Below are positions 711-60,700 of a stretch of 64,000 nucleotides of DNA, piece by piece. The translations under genes were made by a program, and so were the position numbers. The stretch comes from Argopecten irradians (taxonomy: Eukaryota > Mollusca > Bivalvia > Pectinida > Pectinidae): the NCBI RefSeq assembly GCF_041381155.1, contig NC_091135.1:68719418-68783417 (forward strand), read 5' to 3'. Each line of letters opens with the position of its first letter. Positions within the stretch are counted from its first letter, which is position 1. The notes under the pieces were generated by a model, which saw nothing but the letters and a program-made list of their open reading frames with translations, was not told the origin of the DNA and did not search any database.

Positions 711-3250
711 CGGGAGGCTGAAGTTGGTTCCGAGTTCCGAGTTCCGAGTTCCGTTTAAGAAATTTTTCTATCATTTTAGATAAAATCATTCAATATGCCT
801 AAGACATATGAATAATGTTGCCTGTTGTCATTTTTCATGGGTTACTAGTGGCAAATCCACTTTAATTTAGTTTTCGATCGACATCCATTTCCCAGTTCCG
901 TTTAAGTAAAACGGAACTCGGAACCAGTTCCGAGTTCCGTTTAAGGAAATTTTCTATCATTTTTTAGATAAAATCATTCAATATGCCAAAGACATATGAG
1001 AAATGTTGCCTGTTGTCTTTTTTAATGGATAAATATTGGTAAATCTACTTTAATTTAGTTTACGATCGACTTCCATTTCCGAGTTCAGTTTAAGTAAAAC
1101 GAGTTCCGTTTAAGGAAATTTTCTATCATTTTAGATAAAATCATTCAATATGCCTAAGGCATATGAATAATGTTGCCTGTTGTCATTTTTCATGGGTTAC
1201 TAGTGGCAAATCCACTTTAATTTAGTTTTCGATCGACTTCCATTTCCCAGTTCCGTTTAAGTAAAACGGAACTCGGAACCAGTTCCGAGTTCCGTTTAAG
1301 AAAATTTTCTATCATTTTAGATAAAATCATTCAATATGCCTAAGACATATGAATAATGTTGCCTGTTGTCATTTTTCATGGGTTACTAGTGGCAAATCCA
1401 CTTTAATTTAGTTTTCGATCGACTTCCATTTCCCAGTTCCGTTTAAGTAAAACGGAACTCGGAACCAGTTCCGAGTTCCATTTAAGGAAATTTTCTATCA
1501 TTTTAGATAAAATCATTCAATATGCCTAAGACATATGAATAATGTTGCCTGTTGTCATTTTTCATGGGTTACCAGTGGCAAATCCACTTTAATTTAGTTT
1601 TCGATCGACATCCATTTCCCAGTTCCGTTTTAAGTAAAACGGAACTCGGAACCAGTTCCGAGTTCCGTTTAAGGAAATTTTCTATCATTTTAGATAAAAT
1701 CATTCAATATGCCAAAGACATATGTGAAATGTTGCCTGTTGTCTTTTTTAATGGATAAATATTGGTAAATTCACTTTAATTTAGTTTTCGATCGACTTCC
1801 GTTTCCCAGTTCCGTTTAAGTAAAACGGAACTCGGAACCAGTTCCGAGTTCCGTTTAAGAAAATTTTCTATCATTTTAGATAAAATCATTCAATATGCCT
1901 AAGACATATGAATAATGTTGCCTGTTGTCATTTTTCATGGGTTACTAGTGGCAAATCCACTTTAATTTAGTTTTCGATCGACTTCCATTTCCCAGTTCCG
2001 TTTAAGTAAAACGGAACTCGGAACCAGTTCCGAGTTCCATTTAAGGAAATTTTCTATCATTTTAGATAAAATCATTCAATATGCCTAAGACATATGAATG
2101 TTCCGTTTAAGTAAAACGGAACTCGGAACCAGTTCCGAGTTCCGTTTAAGGAAATTTTCTATCATTTTAGATAAAATCATTCAATATGCCAAAGACATAT
2201 GAGAAATGTTGCCTGTTGTCTTTTTTAATGGATAAATATTGGTAAATCCACTTTAATTTAGTTTACGATCGACTTCCATTTCCGAGTTCAGTTTAAGTAA
2301 AACGAGTTCCGTTTAAGGAAATTTTCTATCATTTTAGATAAAATCATTCAATATGCCTAAGACATATGAATAATGTTGCCTGTTGTCATTTTTCATGGGT
2401 TACTAGTGGCAAATCCACTTTAATTTAGTTTTCGATCGACTTCCATTTCCCAGTTCCGTTTAAGTAAAACGGAACTCGGAACCAGTTCCGAGTTCCGTTT
2501 AAGAAAATTTTCTATCATTTTAGATAAAATCATTCAATATGCCTAAGACATATGAATAATGTTGCCTGTTGTCATTTTTCATGGGTTACTAGTGGCAAAT
2601 CCACTTTAATTTAGTTTTCGATCGACTTCCATTTCCCAGTTCCGTTTAAGTAAAACGGAACTCGGAACCAGTTCCGAGTTCCATTTAAGGAAATTTTCTA
2701 TCATTTTAGATAAAATCATTCAATATGCCTCAGACATATGAATAATGTTGCCTGTTGTCATTTTTCATGGATTAATATTGGCAAATCCACTTTAATTTAG
2801 TTTTCGATCAACTCCTATTTCCCAGTTCCGTTTAAGTAAAACGGAACTCGGAACCAGTTCGGTGTTCCGTTTAAGGAAATTTTCCCTCTATTTAGATAAA
2901 ATCATTCTATATGCCTAAGACATATGAGAAATGTTGCCTGTTGTCTTTTTTCATGGGTACTAGTGATGAATCCACTTTAATTCAGTTTTCGATCAACTCC
3001 TATTTCCCAGTTCCGTTTAAGAACCAGTTCCGAGTTCCGTTTAAGGGAATTCTCTATCATTTTAAATGAAAACAGTCAATGTGCTTTGGACATATTAGAA
3101 ATGTTGTCTGTTGGCTTTTTTCATTGATTACTATTGGTAGATCCACATTGATTTAGTTTTCGATCGACTTCCAGTTCCGAGTTCCGTTTAAGCAAAATGG
3201 AACTAGGAACCAGACCCGAGTACGTTTAACACGAATACTTTGCAACGAGC
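711..3250 (+). repeat. Left array of ~186 bp palindromic satellite
   Basis: About thirteen units of ~186 bp. Each contains a near-perfect 32 bp palindrome (arms AACGGAACTCGGAAC and GTTCCGAGTTCCGTT around two central bases), the block TTTTAGATAAAATCATTCAA, and GGTTACTAGTGGCAAATCC. Units near 2100 are shortened and those after about 2800 diverge increasingly. The outer edge starts CGGGAGGCTGAAGTTGG, which recurs inverted at the far edge of the array ending at 13034. Short open frames are present but are not conserved across units. Confidence 0.9.
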
Positions 3251-4349: not shown

Positions 4350-6930
4350 AATGTCTACTGAGGAGGAGCAGTCAGAGACTGAGTCACCACAACCGCACCC
4401 AAGGAAATCCGCCCATCTGAATGGGAGGACATAGACAGTGAAGGTCAGTGAAAGCAGACTGACCACGTCAACCGGTAGATGATGTTATGGAACAAGGACC
4501 TATCGAGGAGAAACGACATGATAAGTGAGAATGGTAATGGCAGAGGTATCTCTAGCCCAACGAAGGCGCGAAGAGCGAATAGGCAATGCATATATATCAC
4601 TCCTCCCGCGGCATCAGGCAAGAGTAAGAAGGAACACAGTATTAAACGTTACAAACATTATGGTGCCCCCATAACACGTGTTCTATGTTCCACTGTGGAG
4701 CTAACTACTGTACCATATGCCTGTCGAGACTGAACCCCCAAATCAAGGCAGACAAAGAAATGGAAGTTTCTACCTCTGGTCTACCATGAAAAGTGCACTG
4801 GCAGTTTCTGTGCGATAGTCTGCAATACTACCAGGGAGAGGGTGGCGCTCACTAGTCAACAAGAATAAGGAAACTCGCAAGCAGCTGGGCAGAGGCCATG
4901 ACCGGATCAATCTTTCTGAAGATACACCACTCACAGAAGATCTTTCATCGTGACTGGTAGACGGCAGAAGAGGAAGACCTTATTGATCGGGCGATGCGAG
5001 CTGACATATCCGAATAAAAGCCTGTCTGAGAGAGGACTCATGAAAAAACTTCCATGAGTGAAGGTAGAGGATCTCAGGACGTGAATGTAACGTCTCGGGC
5101 CTAGGCTTGCGCAGGAGAATGATTCTGGGTGGGAAAACCAGAGAACATCCACCAGAAACGACAAGAGCTCCGGAAACCAGTGTTGTCTCGGACACAGTGG
5201 CGCTATCGGAAGGAGGGACAATGATGCTTTCGATATATAGAACCCTGTCCACCAGGTTGAATGACGGGGATACATAAGCATGCATTGACGGGACTGCATA
5301 AGCATGCAATTCCTACCAATTCAGAGATAGTGCGTCCACAGCCCAAGCCATTTGGTTTGGCACTGAGAGACAAAGGTTGGCAACTGGTTATTCAGGAAAG
5401 TGGCAAAAAGGTTTATGTGAGGCCTTTTCCAAGCATGACAAATGCCCTCGAAGATCGAAGGATTTAGCTGCCGTTCTGTTAGAACCGGCTAGTGGCGTCT
5501 GGAGAGATTATCCGCCAGATCATTCAACCTTCCTGGAAGATGCTTGTCTAAAATAGTCAACTGCATTTCCTGACAGATGGGAAGAATACGGAAATACGGA
5601 TAGCGAGGGCACAAAGGACGTGATATCGTATCTCCCTTTCTCTCTATATACGCGACATCTGTAGAGTTGTTCGTAGTCACACAAACCCCCTTGTAATGCA
5701 GAATCTTCATTTAAGCATGCAGAGCAAACAGAAAAGCCATCATCTCCAGCATGTCGTTGTGCTCTGTCAAGGTAAGCCAACAACCTTCCCATGAACGCAT
5801 CCGTGAACATGGTCATGGTTGGAGCTGGCCTACACAACGAAACCCCCTGCAGGATATTTTAAATTGCCTTTCAGAGTACACCACCGAGAAACCCCATGCG
5901 TTGATATAACACAAAACACCGAAACCAACGAATATGGACGTTGGACCAGCCGAGATGAAAGTAAGAGGCATTTTCGAATTTCTCCAAAGGTGGAAGGACA
6001 ATACCCTGAATTGTGTTGAAACGGTTTCTGAAGACAAAGTCCTGGAAGGGTACATCTCGGAGTCTTGAAGGAATGAAGCCGACTTTGATCAAACTTTTCA
6101 GGACCAGACGGGTGTTCCGCTCCAAAGAATAGATGTGAACATGTCTTCCCCGTTGTGCAGAAATCCCGTAAAAACAAGCAGCTTCTGATGGGACGCTCCC
6201 AATTTCTTGTGGATAAGAAACATTCTTGAATAGAAGCCGGATGTATAGTCTACCATAGGTACCTCCTCGACCGCACCCTTTTAAAGCGTGGTCCTTACTT
6301 CCTTCTGAATGGCAAGTGCTTTCTCTGGATCCCCCGATGGATGAAAGATGATAAACCTTGACGCAAATGGTGGATCTCGTGTGTGATTTCCTTCTAATGA
6401 CTTTGGGAGGAAGGCGAACAGCCGATCTGCTACAACAAGATGGTGACGAGGAAGATAGAGACCCTCCTAGGTGGGAAATTGTTTCCTAACCCGAAGACTC
6501 ATCTGCGGGAGAAGGAGCAGTATCTGAGTCCTCCAGAAGAGACCTTTCGTATGGAACGATCAAGGAGGGGAAAATTAATCAGGAACTTTTCTTCCTGTCC
6601 CCTTGAGGGTTTATACTCTTCTTACCCTTCCTTCTCTTCAGTACACTTGGGAGCTGAAGATCTAGCCTTCTTCTTGGGTGGTGCTGACCCCTGCGAGGTA
6701 ATGGCCTTCAATGTCTGAATTTTCTTCAAAACAAGACAGAAAGGACCGAGTCCTCATTCAAATCAGCGTGTCGCATGCGAAATCTTCGGTGTGGTTGATT
6801 TCCTCGAAAACGGCTACTGGCTGCATAAAGTATATCCCGATATGCTCTGATTCTTGGCCAGAGGTCATGCGGTTTGGCTAACCCATGCGTGCGAGATGAA
6901 GAAGAATTCGTCTTCAAAAGAGTTTAAATA
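4350..6930 (-). mobile_element. DIRS-like tyrosine-recombinase retrotransposon, broken fossil
   Basis: On the minus strand, from high to low coordinates, short stretches resemble in order: a basic Gag-like tail (about 6600-6720), the end of a reverse transcriptase (near 5870-6180, with the VLPPLEKFE block), an RNase H segment (near 5490-5840, with MFTDAFMG and HLPGRLNDLADNLSR), a linker rich in W/F/P typical of DIRS polyproteins (near 4930-5310), and the start of a tyrosine recombinase (near 4800-4950). The order fits DIRS-type elements. It is badly broken, with roughly ten or more interruptions, and no intact frame exceeds about 125 codons, so it is old and inactive. Terminal repeats were not identified, so the ends are approximate. 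Base composition is more GC-rich than the surroundings. Confidence 0.68.
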
Positions 6931-10689: not shown

Positions 10690-13034
10690 CGGCCTAAACG
10701 GAACTCAGGTCTGGTTCGTAGTCTATTCATTAAAAAATTCTTCAACGTAACTCGGAACAGGCAACATTTCTATAATGTCCCAAGCACATTGACTGCTTTT
10801 ATCTAAAATGATAGAAAATTTCTTATATGTCTTAGGCATATAGAATGATTTTATCTAAATAGATAGAAAATTACCTTAAACGGAACTCGGAACTGGTTCC
10901 GAGTTCCGTTTTACTTAAACGGAACTCGGAAATGGGAGTTGATCGAAAACTGAATTAAAGTGAATTCATCACTAGTAACCCATGAAAAAAGACAACTGGC
11001 AACATTTCTCATATGTCTTTGGCATATAGAATGATTTCATCTAAATAGATGGAAAATTTCCCTAAACGGAACTCAGAACTGGTTCCGAGTTCCGTTTTAC
11101 TTAAACGGAACTGGGAGATAGGAGTTGATCAAAAACTGAATTAAAGTAGATCCATCACTAGTAACCCATGAAAAAAGACAACTGGCAACATTTCTCATAG
11201 GTCTTAGGCATATAGAATGATTTCATCTAAATAGATGGAAAATTTCCCTAAACGGAACTCGGAACTGGTTCCGAGTTCCGAACTGGGAGATAGGAGTTGA
11301 CCGAAAACTGAATTAAAGTAGATTCATCACTAGTAACCCATGAAAAAAGACAACTGGCAACATTTCTCATAAGTTTTAGGCATATAGAATGATTTATCCA
11401 AAATGATAGAAAATTTCCTTTAACAGAACTCGGAACTGGTTCCGAGTTCCGTTTTACTTAAACGGAACTCGGAAATGGGAGTTGATCGAAAACTGAATTA
11501 AAGTGAATTCATCACTAGTAACCCATGAAAAAAGACAACTGGCAACATTTCTCATATGTCTTAGGCATATAGAATGATTTTATCTAAATAAATAGAAAAT
11601 TTCCTTAAACGGAACTCGGAACTGGTTCCGAGTTCCGTTTTACTTAAACGGAACTCGGAAATGGGAGTTGATCGAAAACTGAATTAAAGTGGATTCATCA
11701 CTAGTAACCCATGAAAAAAGACAACTGGCAACATTTCTCATATGTCTTAGGCATATAGAATGATTTTATCTAAAATGATAGAAAATTTCCTTAAACGGAA
11801 CTCGGAAATGGGAGTTGATCGAAAACTGAATTAAAGTGAATTCATCACTAGTAACCCATTAAAAAAGACAACTGGCAACATTTCTCATATGTCTTAGGCA
11901 TATAGAATGATTTTATCTAAATAAATAGAAAATTTCCTTAAACGGAACTCGGAACTGGTTCCGAGTTCCGTTTTACTTAAACGGAACTCGGAAATGGGAG
12001 TTGATCGAAAACTGAATTAAAGTGGATTCATCACTAGTAACCCATGAAAAAAGACAACTGGCAACATTTCTCATATGTCTTAGGCATATAGAATGATTTT
12101 ATCCAAAATGATAGAAAATTTCCTTAAACGGAACTCGGAACTGGTTCCGAGTTCCGTTTTACTTAAACGGAACTCGGAAATGGGAGTTGATCGAAAACTG
12201 AATTAAAGTGGATTCATCACTAGTAACCCATGAAAAAAGACCACTGGCAACATTTCTTATATGTCTTAGGCATATAGAATGATTTTATCTAAATAGATAG
12301 AAAATTTCCTTAAACGGAACTCGGAACTGGTTCCGAGTTCCGTTTTACTTAAACGGAACTCGGAAATGGGAGTTGATCGAAAACTGAATTAAAGTGGATT
12401 CATCACTAGTAACCCATGAAAAAAGACAACTGGCAACATTTCTCATATGTCTTAGGCATATAGAATGATTTCATCTAAATAGATGGAAAATTTCCCTAAA
12501 CGGAACTCAGAACTGGTTCCGAGTTCCGTTTTACTTAAACGGAACTGGGAGATAGGAGTTGATCAAAAACTGAATTAAAGTAGATCCATCACTAGTTACC
12601 CATGAAAAAAGACAACTGGCAACATTTCTCATATGTCTTAGGCATATAGAATGATTTTATCCAAAATGATAGAAAATTTCCTTAAACGGAACTGGGAAAT
12701 GGAAGTCGATCGAAAACTAAATTAAAGAGGATTTACCAATATTAATCCATTAAAAAAGCCAACAGGCAACATTTCTAATATGTCCAAAGCACATTGACAA
12801 CTTTTATCTAAAAAGATAGAGAATTTCCTTAAACGGAACTCGGAACTGGTTCCGAGTTCCGTTTTACTTAAACGGAAATAGATGTTATTTGAAAACGTAT
12901 TTAAACTAGCTCTATCACAAATTATACATGAAAAAAAACACAACAGAAAACCGGTTCCGAGTTCCGTTTAGCTTAAACTCGGATAACTGAACTCGGAACT
13001 CGAACTCGAACTCGGAACCAACTTCAGCCTCCCG
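10690..13034 (-). repeat. Right array of the ~186 bp satellite, inverted
   Basis: This is the reverse complement of the unit at 711-3250, with about twelve copies. Each contains the same 32 bp palindrome, CACTAGTAACCCATGAAAAA and ATATAGAATGATTT blocks. The outer end at 13034 is the inverse of CGGGAGGCTGAAGTTGG at 711, and identity there extends about 27 bases. The two arrays form a very long inverted repeat around 7.4 kb of transposon remnants. Confidence 0.9.
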
Positions 13035-37641: not shown

Positions 37642-40600
37642 ATGTTCACGGCATACTTAGCTGTAACTGCAATCATCATTGTGCCGATAATTTCGGCATA
37701 TAACGAGGACTGCTCCGCATCAGGTGCGTATGGTATCACAAACTAAAGTGGTAGTTACATACTAGTTGTCTGCTTCAATGCCAATATGTATCCACTAGCA
37801 TGATATAATGTAAATTGCTCGAATTTTTTTATCATGAAACGAAACGTTATAACATTTGGGTGAATATAATTTTTTTATATAAATATCGTCAAATTACCAT
37901 TCTTCTTTTCTAAGCAAATTTCAAAATATTGGAGTGTATATTTTACCTAAGATAATTAGAACTATTCCGCCGTTTTATCGACTTTTAGATATCTTAACTA
38001 TAAACATGCAAGTAAATTAATGGTAGATCGAATGAACATATCGCGATATATACAACTACAGCTCGTCTGTATGAAAACCTAATTTGAAGTTAGATACTAT
38101 CAAACATTATCTAGAAAGTTAAACACCTCAAGACTGTCTCATAATGGAAGTCAAACGCTTAATAGATAAAGGACAGAGACATGTAACATTTATCATATAG
38201 AAAAAACAATCATTATGGTAATTATTCCTTGATGATAGATATGTTGGCAACATCTTCTTTAGATGAGAGAAAAAAATCATCGCCGAAATTTACAAGTCTT
38301 TCTGAATAAACATTTCGTTAGCTTTGAATGTGTAACTAATTTGTGCAGTTTTGCTTTGAAATAATGAGAAAATCGTATCCACTAAATGAATTACTACGTT
38401 TAAAGCTAGGTAATGAAAAACTTTTTTTTATATTCAGGCCTATGTACAGCCCTAGACGGTACCACATGTGTGTCACCTGGCACCACGAACCAGGAAGGAT
38501 GTAAAGTCTACCTGTGTGACCTAGTTAACGACACTCTTACATACGGAATAGACCCCGCTTCTAGTAGGTGAACAATGTTGACAAACAAACAGGAGTGGTC
38601 TGAAAGTTCATTCTGAACAGACTACTGAACAATGTTGACAAACAAACAGGAGTGGTCTGAAAGTTCATTCTGAACAGACTGCTGAACAATGTTGACAAAC
38701 AAACATAGGTGGTCTGAAAGTTCATTCTAAACAGACTGCTGAACAATGTTGACAAACAAACAGGAGTGGTCTAAAAGTTCATTCTGAACAGACTGCTGAA
38801 CAATGTTGACAAACAAACAGGAGTGGTCTAAAAGTTCATTCTGAATAGACTGCTGAACAATGTTGACAAACAAACAGGAGTGGTCTGAAAGTTTGTTCTG
38901 AACAGACTGCTGAACAATGTTGACAAACAAACAGGAGTGGTCTGAAAGTTTATTCTGAACAGACTGCTGAACAATGTTGACAAACAAACAGGAGTGGTCT
39001 GAAAGTTCATTCTGAACAGACTGCTGAACAATGTTGACAAACAAACAGGAGTGGTCTGAAAATTCATTCTGAACAGACTGCTGAACAATGTTGACAAACA
39101 AACAGGAGTGGTCTAAAAGTTCATTCTGAACAGACTGCTGAACAATGTTGACAAACAAACAGGAGTGGTCTGAAAGTTCATTCTGAACAGACTGCTGAAC
39201 AATGTTGACAAACAAACAGGAGTGGTCTAAAAGTTCATTCTGAACAGACTGCTGAACAATGTTGACAAACAAACAAGAGTGGTCTGAAAGTTCATTCTGA
39301 ACAGACTGCTGAACAATGTTGACAAACAAACAGGAGTGGTCTAAAATTCATTCTGAACAGACTGCTGAACAATGTTGACAAACAAACAGGAGTGGTATGA
39401 AAGTTCATTCTGAACAGACTGCTGAACAATGTTGACAAACAAACAGGAGTGGTATGAAAGTTCATTCTGAACAGACTGCTGAACAATGTTGACAAACAAA
39501 CAGGAGTGGTATGAAAGTTCATTCTGAACAGACTGCTGAACAATGTTGACAAACAAACAAGAGTGGTATGAAAGTTCATTCTGAACAGACTGCTGAACAA
39601 TGTTGACAAACAAACAGGAGTGGTATGAAAGTTCATTCTGAACAGACTGCTGAACAATGTTGACAAACAAACAGGAGTGGTCTGAAAGTTCATTCTGAAC
39701 AGACTGCTGAACAATGTTGACAAACAAACAGGAGTGGTCTAAAAGTTCATTCTGAACAGACTGCTGAACAATGTTGACAAACAAACAAGAGTGGTATGAA
39801 AGTTCATTCTGAACAGACTGCTGAACAATGTTGACAAACAAACAGGAGTGGTCTGAAAGTTCATTCTGAACAGACTGCTGAACAATGTTGACAAACAAAC
39901 AAGAGTGGTCTGAAAATTCATTCTGAACAGACTGCTGAACAATGTTGACAAACAAACAGGAGTGGTCTAAAAGTTCATTCTGAACAGACTGCTGAACAAT
40001 GTTGACAAACAAACAGGAGTGGTCTAAAAGTTCATTCTGAACAGACTGCTGAACAATGTTGACAAACAAACAGGAGTGGTCTGAAAGTTCATTCTGAACA
40101 GACTGCTGAACAATGTTGACAAACAAACAAGAGTGGTCTGAAAGTTCATTCTGAACAGACTGCTGAACAATGTTGACAAACAAACAGGAGTGGTCTAAAA
40201 GTTCATTCTGAACAGACTGCTGAACAATGTTGACAAACAAACAAGAGTGGTATGAAAGTTCATTCTGAACAGACTGCTGAACAATGTTGACAAACAAACA
40301 GGAGTGGTATGAAAGTTCATTCTGAACAGACTGCTGAACAATGTTGACAAACAAACAAGAGTGGTATGAAAGTTCATTCTGAACAGACTGCTGAACAATG
40401 TTGACAAACAAACAGGAGTGGTCTGAAAGTTCATTCTGAACAGACTGCTGAACAATGTTGACAAACAAACAAGAGTGGTCTGAAAGTTCATTCTGAACAG
40501 ACTGCTGAACAATGTTGACAAACAAACAAGAGTGATATGAAAGTTCATTCTGAACAGATTGCTGAACAATGTTGACAAACAAACAAGAGTGGTCTGAAAG

Positions 40601-43600
40601 TTCATTCTGAACAGACTGCTGAACAATGTTGACAAACAAGAGTGGTCTGAAAGTTCATTCTGCTATACAACATGACTTAATTCTTTAGACATTTTCCGCA
40701 GCGGACTTTAATTGAAAGGAAGAGAGTTTGCTATAGATATATCATTCACCAATGTATGCTACTAAATAATCCTCTAGCACTTTAATTCATAAAGAAAATA
40801 TCAAATCTATTATTATCACTAATCACTTGACTAAAATCCTGTCTGAACTACGTTTTCCCTATCCATTTAGATTGAAATATGGCGACATTTACTGTTCTTG
40901 GGATTGCAGGCACTTAAAAAATATCATTAAAAACAGTCCACAGTGAAAAAACAATATATATACAAGATTAATGAACGTTATATGCCAAGTTGATTGAATA
41001 AGTAAAATCATTGCCCAAACGCCGACATAGGGAAAAGTCACAAAACATCGCTTATTTAAGTACGACATATAATCAGATGTATCTGTATAGTGGGGTCATC
41101 AATTTGGACTAGTTGATTTACTGAACAATAATTATTTTTCTGTATTTTCATGCAAAACCCGATTTTCGGTTTGGCCTATTCTTTTTTGTCAACTGTAATC
41201 GTACGTTATTTTAGATGAATCTATGTCACATTTTTAGACCAATCTATGTCATATATTTAGACCAATCTATGTCACATTTTAGGACAATCTATGTCATATT
41301 TTTAAACCAATCTATGTCATATTTTAAACCAATCTATGTCACATTTTTAGACCATTCTATGTCATATCTTTAAACCAATCTATGTCACATTTTTAGACCA
41401 ATCTATGTCACATTTTTAGACCATTCTATGTCATATCTTTAAACCAATCTATGTCACATTTTTAGACCATTCTATGTCATATCTTTAAACCAATCTATGT
41501 CACATTTCAGACCATTCTATGTCATATCTTTAGACCAATCTATGGCATATTTTTAGACCAATCTATGTCACATTTTTAAACCCATTCTGTGTCACATGTT
41601 TTTGAAGTCATTTATTATATAAATTTTGTGAGTTACAAAAATAAAATGACATTATCCTCCTAATTATTCCACAGGTCAATGTACTGCTATGGACGGTACC
41701 ACGTGTGTGGCCCTAGGAAGTACTAACCAGGAGGGATGCGACATCTACCGGTGTGAATTCGTGGACGATAATCTGGACTACGTAATTGATGAATTAAGTA
41801 AGTCATAAAGTTAGGGATAATAAGGATAACTTGATATTAACAGTTACTTAAATGGTTATAAACAAAAACAAACTTTTTCATGATGCCATTATGAATTGGG
41901 GTAGATATGTGATTGTTTTTTTTTTTAATTTTTAATTATTGTCCATTGAAGGGTGCCGACATCCTAATGGAACGTGTTTACCAGAAGGCTACGAAGAGCG
42001 AAATAAGAAGACTTGCATCTTCACTTCGTGTATAAAACAAACAGAAATGGACGAATCAATTACCATGAGAGTACGCCATAGGCCTTATGGTACGTGAATG
42101 GTTAAATTTTTTCATCCAAAAATATTCAGAAGCGTGTTATATAGCTTTCTCCCATTTAAATCATCAATTGGGAAAATCTAAGCATATATATGGATAAATT
42201 TGTAATAGGATCAAAGATTGAATGGATTTGATTCCTTTTAAATAAGTTTTCAATCAAGGTTTTGTCACTTTATAAAGCATATCTCTGTCCAATCCGATTG
42301 TGTCCAGTTAAATACCTTAAGGAACGTTTTTTCTGATTGTGCCTAGCTAAAAACCTTGAGAAACGTTTTTTCTTGTTTAATGTAGCTAAAAACCTTGAGA
42401 AATGTCTGATTGTGACTAGTTAAATATCCTAATGAACGTTGTGTCTGATTTACAGGATGTTTACATTCGAATGGCACCTGTTTAGAAGAGAACTACATAG
42501 AGTGGAATATCAGAACCTGTGATTTAATAACATGTAGAAAGGAAGCTGATCCGAACGGCATGCTCCGAATGAATCTCCGCATCAGACAGCATGGTAGGTT
42601 TCCAACATATAGACTGCCTTACAATATCTACCAATAATAATCGACCTCATATTTTATAAAGTTTGATTTCAGAATCTACATTTCCTATATTAATGCATTA
42701 TTCATTTTGTGTACTGCTTAGTGCATCCTGTCTTTCAGAATATACTATTTCCATATACATGTAGTAGTATCAATGCTATATTTTCCAGGCTGTATGCTGC
42801 CCAGTGGATCCTGCCTTGCTCCCAACATACCACTTTACAAGGACCTGGAACGTTGTTGCAGCCCAGTCTGTAGGAGATCTTTAGGGGGATTCATACTAAA
42901 ACGAAACTATCAGGGTAAGTGCCTTGCTGACTAGTATGTTTGCTCTTTTAAAATCTACATGCGGTTTTTTAATCTTAGTGCTTTTATTTTGTTATATGTA
43001 TTTTCATATATTATTTATTATCATATCATATTAAAAAATCAAACAGAATATCAAAATTCATAAAATGATAATGATAAAAACCTACAAATGTGTCTTCTAA
43101 ATTGTTCCTCAGTCTGATATTTCGAAAATAGTGGCGTGTTTATGTCCTGCTATTCTAACATTAGTCTTCATTCAAGTGATGTACAGTTGTCCAGAACTAC
43201 TCGAAAGGCGGTTGTTGTCTTATTGAAATATGAAATTCTGCCGCCAAATCTAAGTTCTAATTAGTTTTTACGTAATTTACGGCCAATGTTTAACAACTCT
43301 CCCAATGGAGTTTAGAACACGTAATCGTGAGGTGGGTTCTGGCCTCAGTTTCACGAACATTCCTTAATTTTAAGGAATTCCTTAACTTAAAAGTCTCCAT
43401 TGGATACCATTAGAAATTCTAAGGCAGGTTCCATAACTTAAGGTGTTTTCTATAACTCGTGTAATGCTTTCCTATTGGGAATTTCAAGTTTAAGAAGTTC
43501 CTTAAAGTTAAGGAATGTTCATGAAACTGGGCCCAGAGGTAACAAGCAGAACTCCTTCGCCACCAATGACTACGGCCCCTTTAATGTTCAATAATCGATG

Positions 43601-46600
43601 ATCTACAGCGAACCATGGGAATATTGGTGTAAACTGGTTATTGGTTTACAACAGGGTGTCCTCGGAACGGAAAATGTGAGTTGGTTGATACCGTAGTGGA
43701 TGTGGGATGCATGAGATACATATGTAAAGTGTCAAACTTTGGATCGACAATGCAGTGGAAGCCAATAGGTAACGTATCACAAGAAAAAGTTGTCGGTAAT
43801 TCCTCGTCATTACTTTATAGTTTGCTCGTATATTAGATACTTTATTTATATGCGGCTTAATCATGGGTTTGGACGTAGAATAGTGTACCTCACACATTTT
43901 ATGTCAAAACTCAAATATTGTCTACGGAATGAAATGACAGCTACCTCTGCTCACAGTTACGGTTAGGTTTTTAATCTTTCCTTATTGGATTCCGTTTATA
44001 GAACAACACGAAAGCCACATAGATTAAAAGCATTGTCGACTTCAATTAATCAATTAAATAAATATTTATCTTTGGCTAAATCTTTGGCTGAATTTCGCAT
44101 CGAAGGAAGCTAGTATTAGCTTGTGATGATGCCTCTTGATTGTCTTGGCTGATTGTAGCTGCGGATCCGGTGTGACGCATACAAGGCGGAAGCTTGAAAA
44201 CTCGACGTTGCGGAACAACTTTGTCATCCAGCTGTTCCATTAATTTTGTTTCTCGTCGTATATAGGTGTCATAATTTTAAATATGATATAATAACCATTC
44301 AATAATTTTTATTTTCATAAATTATTTTAATGTTTACATATGGATTGAATGTATTTTTCTAATTTTCATAGCGGCTATGAAAATTAGAAAAATACATTCA
44401 ATCCCTATATGTACAGATTTTCGACGGGCAGATATTGTAGTATATTATTACGATTTGTAAATAATATATTAAAATGTTGACTGAGTATATTATTACTATT
44501 TGTAACTGATATGTATAGATGTTGACATAGTATATTATTACTATTTGTAAATGATCTATTTAGTATTGACTTAGTATATTATTACTATTTGTAAATGACA
44601 TATTTAGATATCGAGTTAGTATATTGTTACTATTTGTAAATGATATATATAGATGTTGATTTAGTATATTGTTACTATTTGTAAATGATATGTATAGATG
44701 TTGACATAGTATATTATTACTATTTGTAAATGACATATTTAGATATTGACTTAGCATATTGTTACTATTTGTAAATGATATGTATAGATGTTGATATTGT
44801 ATATTATTACTATTTGTAACTGATGTATATAGATGTTGACATAGTATATTATTACTATTTGTAAATGACATATTTAGATATTGACTTAGCATATTGTTAC
44901 TATTTGTAAATGATATGTATAGATGTTGACATAGTATATTATTACTATTTGTAAATGATCTATTTAGATATTGACTTAGTATATTATTACTATTTGTAAA
45001 TGATATATTTAGATATTGACTTAGTATATTATTACTATTTGTAAATGATATATATAGATGTTGAATGCGTATATTATTACTATATGTAAATGATATATTT
45101 AGATATCGAGTTAGTATATTGTTACTATTTGTAAATGATATATATAGATGTTGATATTGTATATTATTACTATTTGTAAATGATGTATATAGATGTTGAC
45201 ATAGTATATTATTACTATTTGTAAATGACATGTTTAGATATTGACTTAGCATATTGTTACTATTTGTAAATGATATATATAGATGTTGAATGAGTATATT
45301 ATTACTATATGTAAATGATATATTTAGATATCGAGTTAGTATATTGTTACTATTTGTAAATGATATATATAGATGTTGATATTGTATATTATTACTATTT
45401 GTAACTGATGTATATAGATGTTGACATAGTATATTATTACTATTTGTAAATGACATATTTAGATATTGACTTAGCATATTGTTACTATTTGTAAATGATA
45501 TGTATAGATGTTGATATTGTATATTATTACTATTTGTAACTGATGTATATAGATGTTGACATAGTATATTATTACTATTTGTAAATGACATATTTAGATA
45601 TTGACTTAGCATATTGTTACTATTTGTAAATGATATGTATAGATGTTGACATAGTATATTATTACTATTTGTAAATGATCTATTTAGATATTGACTTAGT
45701 ATATTATTACTATTTGTAAATGATATATTTAGATATTGACTTAGTATATTATTACTATTTGTAAATGATATATATAGATGTTGAATGCGTATATTATTAC
45801 TATATGTAAATGATATATATAGATGTTGACATAGTATATTATTACTATTTGTAAATGACATGTTTAGATATTGACTTAGCATATTGTTACTATTTGTAAA
45901 TGATATATATAGATGTTGAATGAGTATATTATTACTATATGTAAATGATATATTTAGATATCGAGTTAGTATATTATTACTATTTGTAAATGATATATAT
46001 ATATGTTGACATAGTAAATTATTACTTTTTGTATATGATCAATTTATGAAATGATCTATTTAGATATCGACTAAGTATATTATTACAATATGTAAATGAT
46101 CTATTTAGATTGTGACTTGGGTGATGGAACGTGTCATCGTAGAGAGGACACCGTACGCAACGAAACGTCATGTCTTGAAAAAGTATGCAGACCTTTCAAA
46201 GCTGATAACGGCACGTTTGTAACAAAAACCGTGGAAATCTATTATGGTAGGTCTTTTATTGATTATTTGCATTTTAGATCGATTTGGGTATGCCTTAATT
46301 TGCTTTTTCTTCATTATGCAAATAAATACATAGCCCCCCAAAAGTTGTGTTACTTATGTTAAAATTTGTTTTACAATTAATCTCTGAGAAAACTCTTGAA
46401 AAATAAATTAATAAGTTAGAGAAGATAAAATATACATACTGATGCCTATATCAACAAGGTTTACATATTTCTATATTTTATGTATAATTGTAAAATGTCC
46501 ATCTGTAAAACAACTTTTCGGGGGCAGTGTATGATAAAAGTATTTATTCTTCGCGAGATTAAATAACGCATGATCAATCCCGGAATATACATTATAAATA

Positions 46601-49593
46601 GTAATTATTTGACACGTTTTCAGAACTTACTACGGAAACCTAAATTTCTCTTGTTTGTTATCCTAATAAGCAAATTCTGTCCGGTATAAAAATCGATTCT
46701 AGGATCTAGATGTGTAAACAAATAAGATTGAGTAAGTAAAATAGCTAATCAATTTCCTTGAATATATAAAATTGATGCAGTTATATCATTTAAAAAGGGC
46801 AACACAACATGGAATGTTTCGTTGAACTGTAAAGATAATAAAGGTTTGATAAGCTTATGTCTATTTCAGTACAAAAAGGTCATTGTTATTTTAGGGTGCC
46901 CTCACAATGGCGGATGTGAAGAAGATCAGTCTACCATACTGGACACACAGACCTGCACAACTAAACAATGCAGGTTATACAACAGAGGTCGGAAAATGGC
47001 CTGGATTCCAATTCAGCAAGGTAAAGTTTTTCATATATCCGGTACATTTTACGATAAAATAAAGCCTGTGTCGTTGCAACCAGATAAATATTCAAAATCA
47101 TACGGTTTATTCTATAATTGTATGAGAAGAAGTAATACATGTGTTTGGGATTTACTTGTTGATGAGTAATATTTGTGGTCATTGTAAATGTGTGAAACGG
47201 GTTCATTGCTCAAGAAATTGAATGAATATTTACTTTTATCACTATGTAAGGTAACTCTTAATTGGATGTCTTGTTGATGGAGAGTGTCGCTAAATTTACA
47301 GGATGTGTTGTTGACGGAGAGTGTCGGTGAAACCGGAGGGGACTATAGTGTTTATACCCGTTCGTCTGGATTTCGTTAGCAGATGATAACTTGAGAATGA
47401 AATGATGGATTTTGATTAAACTTCACACAATGGTTGCATATTGAAAAATACAGCTTATGATTGAATTTTGTAAACAGACGATAATTTGAACAAACATCAA
47501 CTGATTTTGATCAAACTTCATGCAATGGTAGCATATGAAAGAAAACAGCTTGGGATGAACTTGGCGTCAAAATGTCTACTACAAAGGTCACTTTTACTAA
47601 AAAGAGATTGTTTCAGAAAGTTTAGTTTACGGACAATAACTTGAGAACACATCAACAGAATGTGTTAAAACTTCATACAATGATAACATAACTAATCAAT
47701 AATAACTTGTCACAGATCAGAAACTGTAATTGACGGCAGAGGACGTGTGTTGCTTGCAATACTTACCGTAAGCTTGTTTTACATTATGTGTTGTTGATGG
47801 AGAGTGTCGCTTATTTTACAGGATATGATGTTGATGATGAAGAGTGTCGCTTATTTTACAGGATGTGTTGTTGATGAAGAGTGTCGCTTATTTTACAGGA
47901 TGTGTTGTTGATGAAGAGTGTCGCTTATTTTACAGGATGTGTTGTTGATGAAGAGTGTCGCTTATTTTACAGGATGTGTTGTTGATGAAGAGTGTCGCTT
48001 ATTTTACAGGATGTGTTGTTGATGGAGAGTGTCGCTTATTTTACAGGATATGATGTTGATGATGAAGAGTGTCGCTTATTTTACAGGATGTGTTGTTGAT
48101 GAAGAGTGTCGCTTATTTTACAGGATGTGTTGTTGATGAAGAGTGTCGCTTATTTTACAGGATGTGTTGTTGATGGAGAGTGTCGCTTATTTTACAGGAT
48201 ATGATGTTGATGGAGAGTGTCGCTTATTTTACAGGATGTGTTGTTGATGAAGAGTGTCGCTTATTTTACAGGATGTGTTGTTGATGGAGAGTGTCGCTTA
48301 TTTTACAGGATGTGTTGTTGATGATGAAGAGTGTCGCTTATTTTACAGGATGTGTTGTTGATGGAGAGTGTCGCTTATTTTACAGGATGTGTTGTTGATG
48401 ATGAAGAGTGTCGCTTATTTTACAGGATGTGTTGTTGATGAAGAGTGTCGCTTATTTTACAGGATGTGTTGTTGATGGAGAGTGTCGCTTATTTTACAGG
48501 ATGTGTTGTTGATGAAGAGTGGTTTTTTTTTATTTTGCAGTATGTGTTGTTGAAAACGAGTTGCTTATTTTGCAGGATGTGTTGTTGAAGGCGAATGCAA
48601 AAATGACACCAACGTTTGGCATGAAAATACAGAGTTCATGTGTGTTGAGAAACGTTGTAACGTAGAGGGTAACAAGAATGGAGGTTTCAAGTGGGACACG
48701 GAAATCGTCCATCAAGGTATATAAACACATATATGTTTCTCCAACAGTCGTTAGCCAAGATCTACACTGACTATGTTAAACATTTATTCATCAATCAATT
48801 GTTTTATCCTACACGTTTCTGTTTTCTCAGGGTGTCGTTACAATGACACATGTTACTACAATGGAGATACCTGGATGGAAGAGAGCTGCTTCACTAAAAA
48901 CTGTACAGTCAGTGAGACGACTAACGGAGGAAGTGTAAGAACAGATACCGTGAGTGGGGGTACGTATCTACAAAACGTGGCTTGATTTGTAATTCATTTA
49001 ACGCCCTATTCACAGCCAGAGTCATATAAACACGTGAGAACAACATTCATGACGAATACAGGGTAAGCAACTCTTCACATCAAAGAAAGTAGTATACGTT
49101 TATTTCTTATACTCAGCGTTTTGTAGTACAGTTCCTCAAAAATACCGAGGACTATCATCTAAATACATCGGTTTACTGTCATTGAAGAGAATCCGTTTGT
49201 ACGAGAAATGCTGATTAAGTTGTGAGTTATGTATCAGTAAGACACCAGTGTATTATTGAAATATGGGTATGACGAGACGTGTCAGAAATAGTAAATATTA
49301 CCTTTTTATAATATTAAAATTTCTTATTGATTTTTACGATAGGAATTGTGCAATCGATCACGCCTTTAAAAACTGCCTTCTTATTCCATTCACCCCATTC
49401 TATACCAATTATTCCCTGATGTTTTTAGTTGACCACCTTTATGTTTGTAGTGTGTAAAGCAGCAGACGGTTCCTGTGTGCCGTATGGGGGAGACGTTATC
49501 CAGGAGGACGGGGCGATGTGTGTCTGTAGTCAGACTGTCTCGCCTTCAGGCTATCTCATTGGTCAGACCACATGTCCAGTTCCAGCAAAATAG
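37642..49593 (+). CDS. Secreted multi-module cysteine-rich (VWC-like) protein, 12 exons
   Basis: Exons: 37642-37723, 38438-38563, 41675-41797, 41952-42089, 42456-42593, 42789-42914, 43655-43768, 46109-46246, 46895-47020, 48576-48716, 48831-48959, 49451-49593. Every intron is phase 1 with GT/AG borders; the total is 1524 nt and 507 residues. Residues 1-19 are a signal peptide (MFTAYLAVTAIIIVPIISA). Exons 2-12 each encode one 38-47 residue module with spacing C-x(5-9)-C-x(~11-16)-C-x(3-4)-C. Examples are GCPHNGGCEED and GCLHSNGTCLEE. The later modules (CYYNGDTWMEESC) resemble the first half of a von Willebrand C domain. The last module ends CVCSQTVSPSGYL with two extra Cys. A secreted extracellular role is inferred; no specific function is recognised. 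Four introns and one donor carry minisatellites. A paralogue starts at 57787. Confidence 0.88.
38567..40660 (+). repeat. 57 bp minisatellite in intron 2, starting at the splice donor
   Basis: About 37 copies of TGTTGACAAACAAACAGGAG, TGGTCTGAAAGTTCATTCTG, AACAGACTGCTGAACAA. The first unit begins three bases after the GTAGG of the exon 2 donor. Copies differ by only a few recurrent substitutions (CTG/CTA/ATG before AAAG, CAGG/CAAG). Because 57 is divisible by three, long open frames appear on the minus strand; these are a repeat artefact. Confidence 0.96.
41213..41600 (+). repeat. ~23 bp minisatellite in intron 2
   Basis: About seventeen units of ACCAATCTATGTCACATTTTTAG with variants (CATATCTTTAA, CATTC). 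It ends about 75 bases before exon 3, and its units are not copies of the exon 3 acceptor. Confidence 0.9.
42290..42455 (+). repeat. Short ~50 bp repeat containing acceptor-like copies before exon 5
   Basis: Three to four units, each with AACGTTTTTTCTGATTGTG followed by a TAG and then a TTAAATACCTTAAG-like spacer. The last unit reads AACGTTGTGTCTGATTTACAG and is the real acceptor of exon 5 at 42455. Confidence 0.75.
43340..43533. mobile_element. MITE in intron 6
   Basis: The inverted termini CAGTTTCACGAACATTCCTT and AAGGAATGTTCATGAAACTG span ~27 bases. The interior has additional TTAAGGAATTCCTTAA palindromic motifs. No coding content. Confidence 0.8.
44336..44412. repeat. Near-perfect palindrome in intron 7
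   Basis: Arms of ~37 bases (GGATTGAATGTATTTTTCTA and TAGAAAAATACATTCAATCC) meet at ATAGCGGCTAT with one central base. It would extrude as a hairpin with essentially no loop. Confidence 0.85.
44440..46108 (+). repeat. 45 bp minisatellite grading into the exon 8 acceptor
   Basis: About 37 units of TATATTATTACTATTTGTAA, ATGATATATTTAGATATTGA, CTTAG. The final unit ATGATCTATTTAG|ATTGTGACTTGG is the true exon 8 border. The repeat therefore includes both the acceptor and the first ~12 bases of the exon. Several repeat variants alternate in a fixed order, which shows block duplications. The 440-codon minus-strand frame is a by-product of the period being divisible by three. Confidence 0.95.
47263..48575 (+). 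repeat. 37-40 bp minisatellite copying the exon 10 acceptor and start
   Basis: There are two early degenerate units (47266-47330), then from 47785 about 21 units of GATGTGTTGTTGATGAAGAG, TGTCGCTTATTTTACAG. The true border is CTTATTTTGCAG|GATGTGTTGTTGAAGGCGAA at 48575/48576. Each unit therefore reproduces the acceptor and the first ~27 bases of exon 10 (C-V-V-x-x-E-C). Unit length varies by a GAT triplet. Confidence 0.96.
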
Positions 49594-57786: not shown

Positions 57787-60700
57787 ATGAATGCTTTTAC
57801 ACTGACTCTCGTGGTTTTGACTTGTCCTGCAATATTTGCTGCTAATGAAGAATGTTCATCAAAAGGTAGGTTTTCCGTATTAATGACACGGAGGGCGTTT
57901 TTCGCGATATTTCGAAACATTATGGGTTTTTTTTTTCTACTGACGCAAAAATGGTTTATTGTTTTACAATTCGGTGAAATTTTCTAACCAGATTTATAAT
58001 TACGTTTTTGTTTTGTATATCCTTATTTCACTTATAAGATATAAAATAATCAAAATAGTTGTAAAATAAACAAGTTCATTATATCATAGCAATTAATTCG
58101 GTCAATCAGTCGTTTTCCAATTTGGACATTTGATTACATGGTAGTTAAAATGGCGTTATTCTTGATATTTGAGCAAATTTTGAACACTAGTATCGAAGAT
58201 TAATTATTATATTCTAATATATAATTGATGAACTGGAAAACGCTCTCTTGTTTTTGGTGATTCTGTAATTTCACAGTGTCTCCTATATAATGTCCTCTTT
58301 ACCAATATCTTATAAGTGACGACGTCATTACAACGTCAATGTTTTTCTGCACAATCGAAATATTTGTTTTGATGCTCGTGAATGTCAAAAGTAATAATAC
58401 TTTGAATGTGTAACATGATTCATGGGATAACCTGTATATACACTGACAGAACAATGCACGGCCGTCGACGGTGTCACCCTGGAGGAATGCAATACATACA
58501 AATGTAGGAAAGAGCGACAAGGTTTTGAAATACCAAATCGTCAAAAAACTGCTAAATATGTCATAGATTGATGATTACAAACTTTCACCAGAATTCAATT
58601 CTAGGGTTTTATTTTATTTGTCATTAACCCGAATAATATATTTATAGCAGAAGTCGCCAGACCGGCATTCGAACACTAGCCGCATACTCTTATCAAATAC
58701 AGAGACTTATTTGTGGTTATAAAATTGTAGAGTGTAAAAAGACCAGACGGGACGTGTATGAAAAAAGGAATGGGCGAGAATAATGAAGAAAGGTGTATTT
58801 TTGAGACTTGTCGGCGTAGGAAGAATGACGGAAGCTTTACTATGGTGTATAAAGAAAGAGCGTATGGTATGTATAGCATTACTATTGCAACTATTAACAT
58901 TTTATCTATATATAATTCAGTTTAGCTTGCAAAGAACATTTTCATAGTCCTCACAATTAAGTTTGAGAATTTCTTCTTTTTCATAGAGAAAAGCAATCAA
59001 TGCATTTGAAACAGTCGAGAGATTATATAAATTGGTGATATAATATTTAGGATTAATTTAAATAGATGTTTTATATAATGGAGGTATGCTATTATTGTTA
59101 TCACAATAAACTGCGAAGTGGTGGTCGGTTTATGATCAGAGAACACACACATGTTTGTGTTATATTTCCAACATAATAAGGTTCCATCGCAAACAAATAT
59201 ATTTCAATTTCCATTGTTCAAAATATTTCGTTTAAAATCTTATGTGTAAAATCAGTCTTATTCAGTAGCTGCCTTTATACTATAACAATGATGTTTGTGT
59301 TATTGCTGTGTATAGCGAGTAAGAGCCTCCTTGGACGTCGCTTTCCATTTGTGCAGGTTGTCCTATGGATGATAGAACATGTTTACGATTCGGGAAGAGA
59401 AATGCACTACCAAACCCAGACAAATGTACAGTGACGACCTGTAATAAAAGGAGAAATAAGAAAGGAGTGCCAAGTACTCTTTTAAAAGAGAATTATTTTG
59501 GTAAGAGTACATGCGATTTGGTTTTTTCCACGTGATTTGTAGGTTATGTTTTAATATTGAAACCAAAGCTTAGCAAATGCTGTACTCGTATAACAGTTAG
59601 CCATTATACTGTGTTGAACAGTTGTGAAAGGGATTACGGTCATATGGCATAAGTCATCGCCCGTTATGTGCCAGACTTTCCGGCAAGATGTTACAAAGCC
59701 ATGGGTGTGATATATGTCCAAGTCAATGAAAACAATGTAACGCTATCTCGGAGAATTCCTTTGTATTCTTGATTTGGTGGAATAATTAATGAGTGATATG
59801 TGCGTGCTAAATAAGCAAATATTTTAGTAGACGTAATGGAATTAAGACATTGTTAATTTGTTACTTTTTCCTCAGATCTTTAATCAGACAAACTAAGAGA
59901 ACGATATCGTGATCATGTGACAAAAATTTGACTAAGTTCATTCCCTACCACTTGTACTCACGTGACAAAAAGATCTGACGGAAGGTCAATACCTGACCAC
60001 CTGTACTCACGTGACCTTGTTTTGTAACCTGGACCTGGAAATTAAAGGCTTACCTTTGCCACATTTTCGAAATAATATCTAAACCTATTTTCCACACACA
60101 TATTGGCATAAATGTAAGCGTGTGCGAAATTTAAATGATGCTCTGAAAAAAAGTACCATTTATTTGTCGTGATATGAACGCGTCAGTGGATGTTACCGAG
60201 GAAGATTGATTGATTTCTATCATGTATTTGAATAAAATACCACCCGGTGCTATACACATATCGTACTAAACTTGTTCACGTGTACCAATTGTTTGCTGTG
60301 TCTGTCAGGGTGTCCACATGATGGGAAGTGTATGACGGACGATGAGACCAGGACCGAGAATTGTACTACCTATCGGTGTGAGCTAACAAAAGGACGCACG
60401 ATGATGAAGTGGGCGATAATCCAAACAGGTAATCAACTGGAAACTAATGACATGGTATACACGTATAAATATACCAACATCAACACTACAAAAAATTAAG
60501 AGTTTAATATATGCTTTAATGTTTTAATATTATTCCGTATTTTAAAGTGAAAATTAAACGGCAAATAATCATACTGTTACACAAACATGAACTGAACACT
60601 AATCCATAACCATTGTATCAGACAATACCACAATGACCTGTGTTGTATTCCGGCTATAGTAACAATGAGGCCTACATTTTTGTAAAAATTAAAAAAACAG

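Follow-up and report, generated by a model that had tools for sequence, protein, structure and literature searches.

Minisatellites that copy an exon-intron border are best described in amphioxus, in which the so-called mirage repeats occur in Adh3 and in the globin genes BflGb6 and BflGb9 (PMC3087553), with similar repeats in PGBD5 in a second report that also cites Adh and TnC (PMC3902484). In these reports, the repeats copy the end of an intron together with the start of the exon, or the end of an exon together with the start of the intron, beside the real border, and the authors infer that splicing is normal (PMC3087553, PMC3902484); somatic instability is also reported for amphioxus Adh3. 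Here we describe an array that covers the acceptor of exon 10 in a gene of the scallop Argopecten irradians, located in the window, i.e., the whole stretch of 64,000 nucleotides of DNA that was analysed (Table 1). In keeping with this source, a myosin exon of the genome is identical over 107 residues to the chain of 1dfk/1b7t/1kk7, which is from bay scallop, and matches 2os8 and 2ec6, from other scallops, less well.

Exons 2-11 of this gene (gene 1) are flanked by phase-1 introns, as read from exon lengths and frame, and each contributes one of about ten four-cysteine domains to the product, with the four cysteines invariant across 15 aligned domains of gene 1 and the neighbouring gene 2; the N-terminal start of the protein looks, by eye, like a signal peptide. 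No Pfam family scored above its cut-off in the Cys-rich stretches of gene 1 that were searched, and Pfam and PDB profile searches gave the domain no name, returning scattered weak single-member matches, with VWC and Fn1_2 (Pfam profiles) matching one each of the 15 members. Searches for the COX1, GFP and molluscan haemocyanin families gave no match, which for GFP and haemocyanin does not show absence. Gene 2 contains a counterpart similar to exon 10 of gene 1. Its exon 3 (58731-58866) is frame-shifted in the window near GTGTAAAAAG, either genuinely or through a sequencing error, and a copy at positions 6443-6730 of locus L019 reads through. L019 lies beyond a very long 39-bp satellite, downstream of the window, that starts at position 2086 of locus L010 (window coordinate about 65686) and fills most of L020 and L021; it carries an inverted copy of gene 2, including the 27-bp array of that gene, as would result from a large palindrome or from an assembly that joined two haplotypes.

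Table 1. Coordinates of the gene 1 features discussed in the text (window positions unless a chromosome is given).
Feature	Position	Strand	Description	Basis or match
Window	C2:68719418-68783417		Genome total 845.8 Mb	
Gene 1	37642..49593	+	12 exons, 507-residue predicted Cys-rich protein	GT-AG borders, lengths, one continuous frame
45-bp array	44438..46107	+	Units end ...TATAG/TTTAG; last is the exon 8 acceptor	
Exon 8	46109..46246	+	138 nt	Gene model
Two decayed units	47263..47310	+	GCTAAATTTACAG; GATGTGTTGTTGACGGAGAGTGTCGG	DNA match C2:68766682-68766743
Acceptor array	47772..48588	+	TRF period 37, 21.7 copies; unit of exon-10-like start (~26 nt) plus TTATTTTACAG	
Penultimate unit	48500..48540	+	41 bp, nine-T run preceding ATTTTGCAG	
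Last unit	48541..48575	+	35 bp, abuts exon 10, ends GCTTATTTTGCAG, presumed working acceptor	
Exon 10	48576..48716	+	141 nt, donor CAAG/gtatat	Same sequence in haplotig

Both TRF and cutting of the units agree with the initial annotation in placing the array at the intron 9/exon 10 border, 48575/48576, over which it runs in register. Cut at every CAG, the array resolves into repeated GATGTGTTGTTGATGRAGAGTGTCGC plus TTATTTTACAG, with some GATATGATG and some forms 3 bp longer, and the final cut is the exon 10 acceptor. Within 47263-48716, exact TTATTTTACAG occurs 19 times, the exact 20-mer GATGTGTTGTTGATGAAGAG nine times and its GGAGAG variant five times, and two more acceptors, at 48540/48541 and at the true border, carry the ending ...TTTTGCAG. 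Upstream of the true exon 10 acceptor lie 20 acceptors in the window and 20 in contig C1150 (17,470 bp), a second copy (haplotig) of the gene 1 region; the initial count of about 21 units is therefore right, with the true acceptor included. The 37-base period holds as the TRF period, but the units of the window measure 37 or 40 bp, the last ones 41 and 35 bp, and C1150 has in addition two of 39 bp. The single minisatellite originally drawn over 47263-48716 is likewise narrower, comprising the acceptor array of Table 1 and, apart from it, the two decayed units, separated by ~460 bp without a TRF-reported array. When the unit sequence was compared with the genome, the sole match beyond the gene 1 locus and its haplotig was C6:37667307 (E 3e-6), a 35-bp minisatellite sharing TTGTTGATGAAGAG at an unannotated locus, taken as a chance match. 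A donor-like GTATGT (48540-48545) shares bases with the penultimate acceptor.

The acceptor and exon start do recur in the units, of which the first 13 nt are identical to exon 10, but the earlier description of the unit as the first ~27 bases of the exon is too strict: no exact copy is present, and the following 13 nt have diverged, with 7 base differences for the closest variant (GGAGAG) and 8 for the commonest (GAAGAG). Read in phase 1, the units give GCVVDGECR or GCVVDEECR, and exon 10 gives GCVVEGECK. All of the next five codons are changed between the GGAGAG variant and the exon; in four of them the change is confined to the third base, silently in three and exchanging E for D in the other, and the fifth is AAA/CGC. 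In the commonest variant (CVVDEECR) one further base differs, turning G into E, and in a third variant (B) C and V are changed too. Over these five codons only, the closest variant resembles an earlier version of the coding exon start.

Copies of each border were sought across the gene region with a 26-nt window (14 intron and 12 exon nt), allowing at most 7 mismatches. The exon 10 border has 22 further copies, with the AG kept in 21, and the exon 8 acceptor border 31, with the AG kept in 30, and none was found by this test at the remaining 20 of the 22 gene 1 borders or at the 12 tested borders of gene 2, its last exon lying outside the test. None of 1176 exon-internal windows of gene 1 had two or more copies, as against 1010 of 1998 sampled intron windows. 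Since half of the intron sequence is repetitive and two of 22 borders are covered, arrays appear to arise throughout introns; the covered borders would then be a tolerated minority, and a special attraction to splice sites would be unneeded.

The array at exon 8 went unnoticed in the initial annotation as one that ends at an acceptor, its terminus being ...AATGATCTATTTAG/ATTGTGACTTGG (exon 8). It covers the acceptor clearly and the exon itself weakly, with 7-9 matches to the exon 8 start in the 12 nt after the AG in 33 of 34 units and 3 in one. Other candidates were rejected, including (i) the 27-bp array of gene 2 (61596 onward), whose unit has TTCAG and which stops ~570 bp before the next exon; (ii) the 57-bp array at 38569-40662 as a donor array, negative in the donor test; and (iii) the 23-bp array at 41209-41602 as an acceptor array, which ends 72 bp before exon 3 and was negative in the acceptor test. 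The 57-bp array (~37 copies) starts at base 6 of intron 2 and abuts the donor without copying it. At 740-3229 and 10818-12877 lie two arrays with a ~186-bp unit, the TRF consensuses of which look mutually reverse-complementary.

The exon 10 array is changing far more rapidly than the sequence that flanks it. Both haplotypes comprise 20 units from the first intact acceptor to the true border, in the orders CAAAAGCAAGBAGDGDAG.. and BCGBDGCGBBB.. (letters denote unit variants), and the flanks differ by 6 substitutions in 2,096 bp, of which 46110-47770 contributes 5, along with 15 gap positions, and 48576-49010 contributes 1. Exons 3-6, 9, 10 and 11 are the same in both haplotypes; a single silent change separates the two versions of exon 2, and one base, with one residue, those of exon 8. 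With one search pattern, exon 8 has 34 upstream acceptors in the window and 33 in C1150. Around exon 7 (43655-43768), identity to C1150 falls to 77% over ~1.4 kb and only part of the exon peptide is recovered there, whereas 44030-44430 is 100% identical; the exon 7 stretch is either of low quality or really different.

Border arrays or two-copy repeats also lie at acceptors and donors of other exons in this minisatellite-rich genome, as shown for a sample comprising the top 30 of 138 CUB domain matches and the top 10 of 59 CCT matches, each with 1.5 kb flank. The sample is score-ranked and non-random, and its exon borders are candidates without annotation, namely AG/GT near the edges of the matched frame, at which in-register copies with at most 6 mismatches were sought, one copy being enough. 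Four of the 30 CUB loci carry border copies (three donors, one acceptor), including 20 further donor copies at L049, in 41-57 bp units of exon end (up to ~47 nt) plus GTATGTA, 6 at L041, one at L035, and, at L045, one additional copy of an acceptor that takes in about 30 nt of exon. All four belong to a gene cluster at C4:1.29-1.43 Mb, the source of 16 of the 30 loci, and the 14 CUB loci outside this cluster have no border copies. Among the CCT loci one of 10 was positive (L060, with two copies of an acceptor and ~24 nt of exon), and L055, on contig C451, was counted negative because the whole CCT exon is repeated ~1.1 kb away. In the CUB set, controls placed inside exons scored positive at one L030 site and at two L049 sites, the latter within the arrayed exon end. 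Minisatellite cover amounts to 38% in the C4 cluster, 7.7% at the other CUB loci, 4.8% at the CCT loci and 28.6% in the window. Within L049, the units at 1681-2797 (CTACAG/GTATGT) join an acceptor-like end and a donor in every copy.

The probable explanation, in our judgement, is a tandem duplication over the splice border that was amplified in the intron, with the last copy serving as the working acceptor and the array tolerated rather than used. A short tandem duplication would once have extended across the intron 9/exon 10 border. Its exon-adjacent copy would have remained under coding and splicing selection, whereas the intron-side copies, being free, may have multiplied through slippage, unequal exchange or conversion to form a rapidly changing minisatellite, in which every unit, homologous to the border, would retain an older exon start and 3' splice site. 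Duplication of the border is favoured by (i) the in-register copies at exons 10 (22) and 8 (31), where the remaining 20 of the 22 gene 1 borders have no copy; (ii) the GGAGAG variant, with four of five changed codons differing at the third base only, three silently; (iii) the intact exon 10, identical in both haplotypes, and the similar exon in gene 2; (iv) a unit order that differs between haplotypes beside 2,096 bp of flank with 6 substitutions; and (v) the two-copy cases L035, L045 and L060 together with the fuller arrays L041 and L049. Against it count the confinement of the third-base pattern to one unit variant and the weak overlap with exon 8 (7-9 of 12 nt). The spliceosome would be expected to use the last exon 10 acceptor, which lies 141 nt from the exon donor and has the top score of 21; occasional use of an upstream acceptor would lead to a stop, and the frame would survive skipping of the exon.

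These expectations can be set beside the predicted splicing consequences, for which the frame was followed in phase 1 from each upstream acceptor, taking pattern-found acceptors only, as far as the donor of the exon. For exon 10, all 20 upstream starts in each haplotype run into a stop (41-125 nt in), and stops also follow after 26 nt from the decayed unit at 47302 and from 34/34 (window) and 33/33 (haplotig) upstream acceptors of exon 8, so that the stop initially predicted for upstream units is borne out. The alternative posed with it, either the last acceptor or destroyed isoforms, is incomplete: exons 10 (141 nt) and 8 (138 nt) are multiples of three nucleotides long and sit between phase-1 introns, and skipping them, a third outcome, therefore keeps the frame. 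Acceptors were scored with a weight matrix built on 15 other acceptors of the two genes, which themselves average 4.8 when left out one at a time (range -2.7 to 11.6). The matrix gives 14.8 for the true exon 10 site, 11.6 for 19 of 20 decoys and 9.4 for the penultimate one, and, for exon 8, -4.8 to -1.2 for the decoys and -1.3 for the true site, although the matrix is small and score differences should not be pressed. Exon 10 decoys that equal the leave-one-out maximum of real acceptors, and one exon 8 decoy slightly above its true site, speak against simple toleration. If the first AG after the branch point is taken, splicing could favour upstream units. At the four exon 10 acceptors examined, the closest AG upstream, leaving out the first 12 nt, is 13-19 nt away and, on the scanning view, AGs less than ~12-15 nt from the branch point can be bypassed (PMC1431707), so that each unit could be a complete acceptor. 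TTGAT/TTGAA is our guess for the branch point in each unit. The last four acceptors define candidate exon 10 lengths of 141, 176, 217 and 254 nt, of which exon definition would favour the shorter ones.

An array that lowers or tunes exon 10 output through decoy binding, stop isoforms or skipping, with its composition mattering, would account for 19 decoys with intact, high-scoring acceptors, for the stop from every upstream use tested and for the possible in-frame skipping of exon 10. We nevertheless consider it unlikely, in view of a unit order that varies widely between haplotypes, though acceptor number is equal, of the poor exon 8 decoy scores and of the amphioxus arrays of the same type, said to splice undisturbed (PMC3087553, PMC3902484), which support toleration. 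It is quite doubtful, in turn, that border minisatellites form a large and actively turning-over class in scallop genomes, at acceptors and donors alike, with an array composition that acts as a heritable splicing rheostat and a nursery of new exons and introns, so that exons such as 8 and 10 are included to different degrees in different individuals. Many units retain the coding form CVVDGECR or CVVDEECR, and a donor-like GTATGT stands at the end-unit border at 48540, as if the units served as additional exons, or extended an exon, and so gave the protein several CVVDGEC motifs; this is very improbable, given the stop after every upstream start and the scarcity of donors, GT with G at +5 occurring once in 47772-48580, at 48540, versus 8 of 11 gene 1 donors, and its use leaving a 36-nt intron before exon 10. 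Misassembly is frequent for tandem arrays, and the initial annotation had allowed for an artefact absent from raw reads; C1150, however, has the array between the same flanks in another unit order, and the border copies are in register, with none such inside exons, which makes an assembly artefact or a chance neighbour of exon 10 scarcely credible.

As far as the DNA goes, the exon 10 array has the structural features of the mirage class: (i) the unit spans the real border, less fully so at exon 8, where the acceptor is covered; (ii) the copies are intronic and end with the authentic border, the use of which is predicted from the frame; and (iii) the arrays differ between haplotypes, in unit order at exon 10 (20 vs 20) and in number at exon 8 (34 vs 33). 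Haplotype differences, splice signals kept in many units and the involvement of both kinds of border are common to the scallop and amphioxus (PMC3087553, PMC3902484). The hosts differ, one a mollusc and the other a cephalochordate, and so do the copy numbers, with 6 and 3 units of 150-160 bp in BflGb6 versus 20 and ~34 copies of 37-45 bp in gene 1 and about 6 and 20 copies at two scallop CUB donors, whereas unit size is no real difference, Adh3 units measuring 10-72 bp. In human segmental duplications, variable minisatellites at exon-intron boundaries can alter splicing, changing exons or forming new introns with RNA support (PMC2812944); the scallop copies are intronic and read from DNA. Likeness to Dscam-like tandem cassette exons, in which every unit is a complete exon with an acceptor, a donor and an open frame of its own, was rejected on the stops in 20 of 20 upstream starts and the single +5 G GT at 48540. 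Human IFI6 (6-16/G1P3) reportedly has a minisatellite with multiple splice donor sites, and the likeness would be that minisatellite units repeat a splice signal in the transcript, on the donor side in IFI6 and on the acceptor side in gene 1, with L035, L041 and L049 as the scallop donor cases. A literature search including mollusc terms gave no mollusc border minisatellite among the matches listed, most subscription papers being outside its coverage. Compared with the described systems, what is new is the mollusc host, the 19 decoys with intact acceptors, the second array in gene 1 and the recurrence in several genes. The scallop arrays suggest that minisatellites of the border-copying kind extend beyond amphioxus. 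With ~20 nearly identical acceptors following one another, and an open frame from the last one alone, exon 10 offers a natural test of 3' splice-site choice, and the two-, six- and twenty-copy cases in one genome possibly represent a stage series from first duplication to full array.
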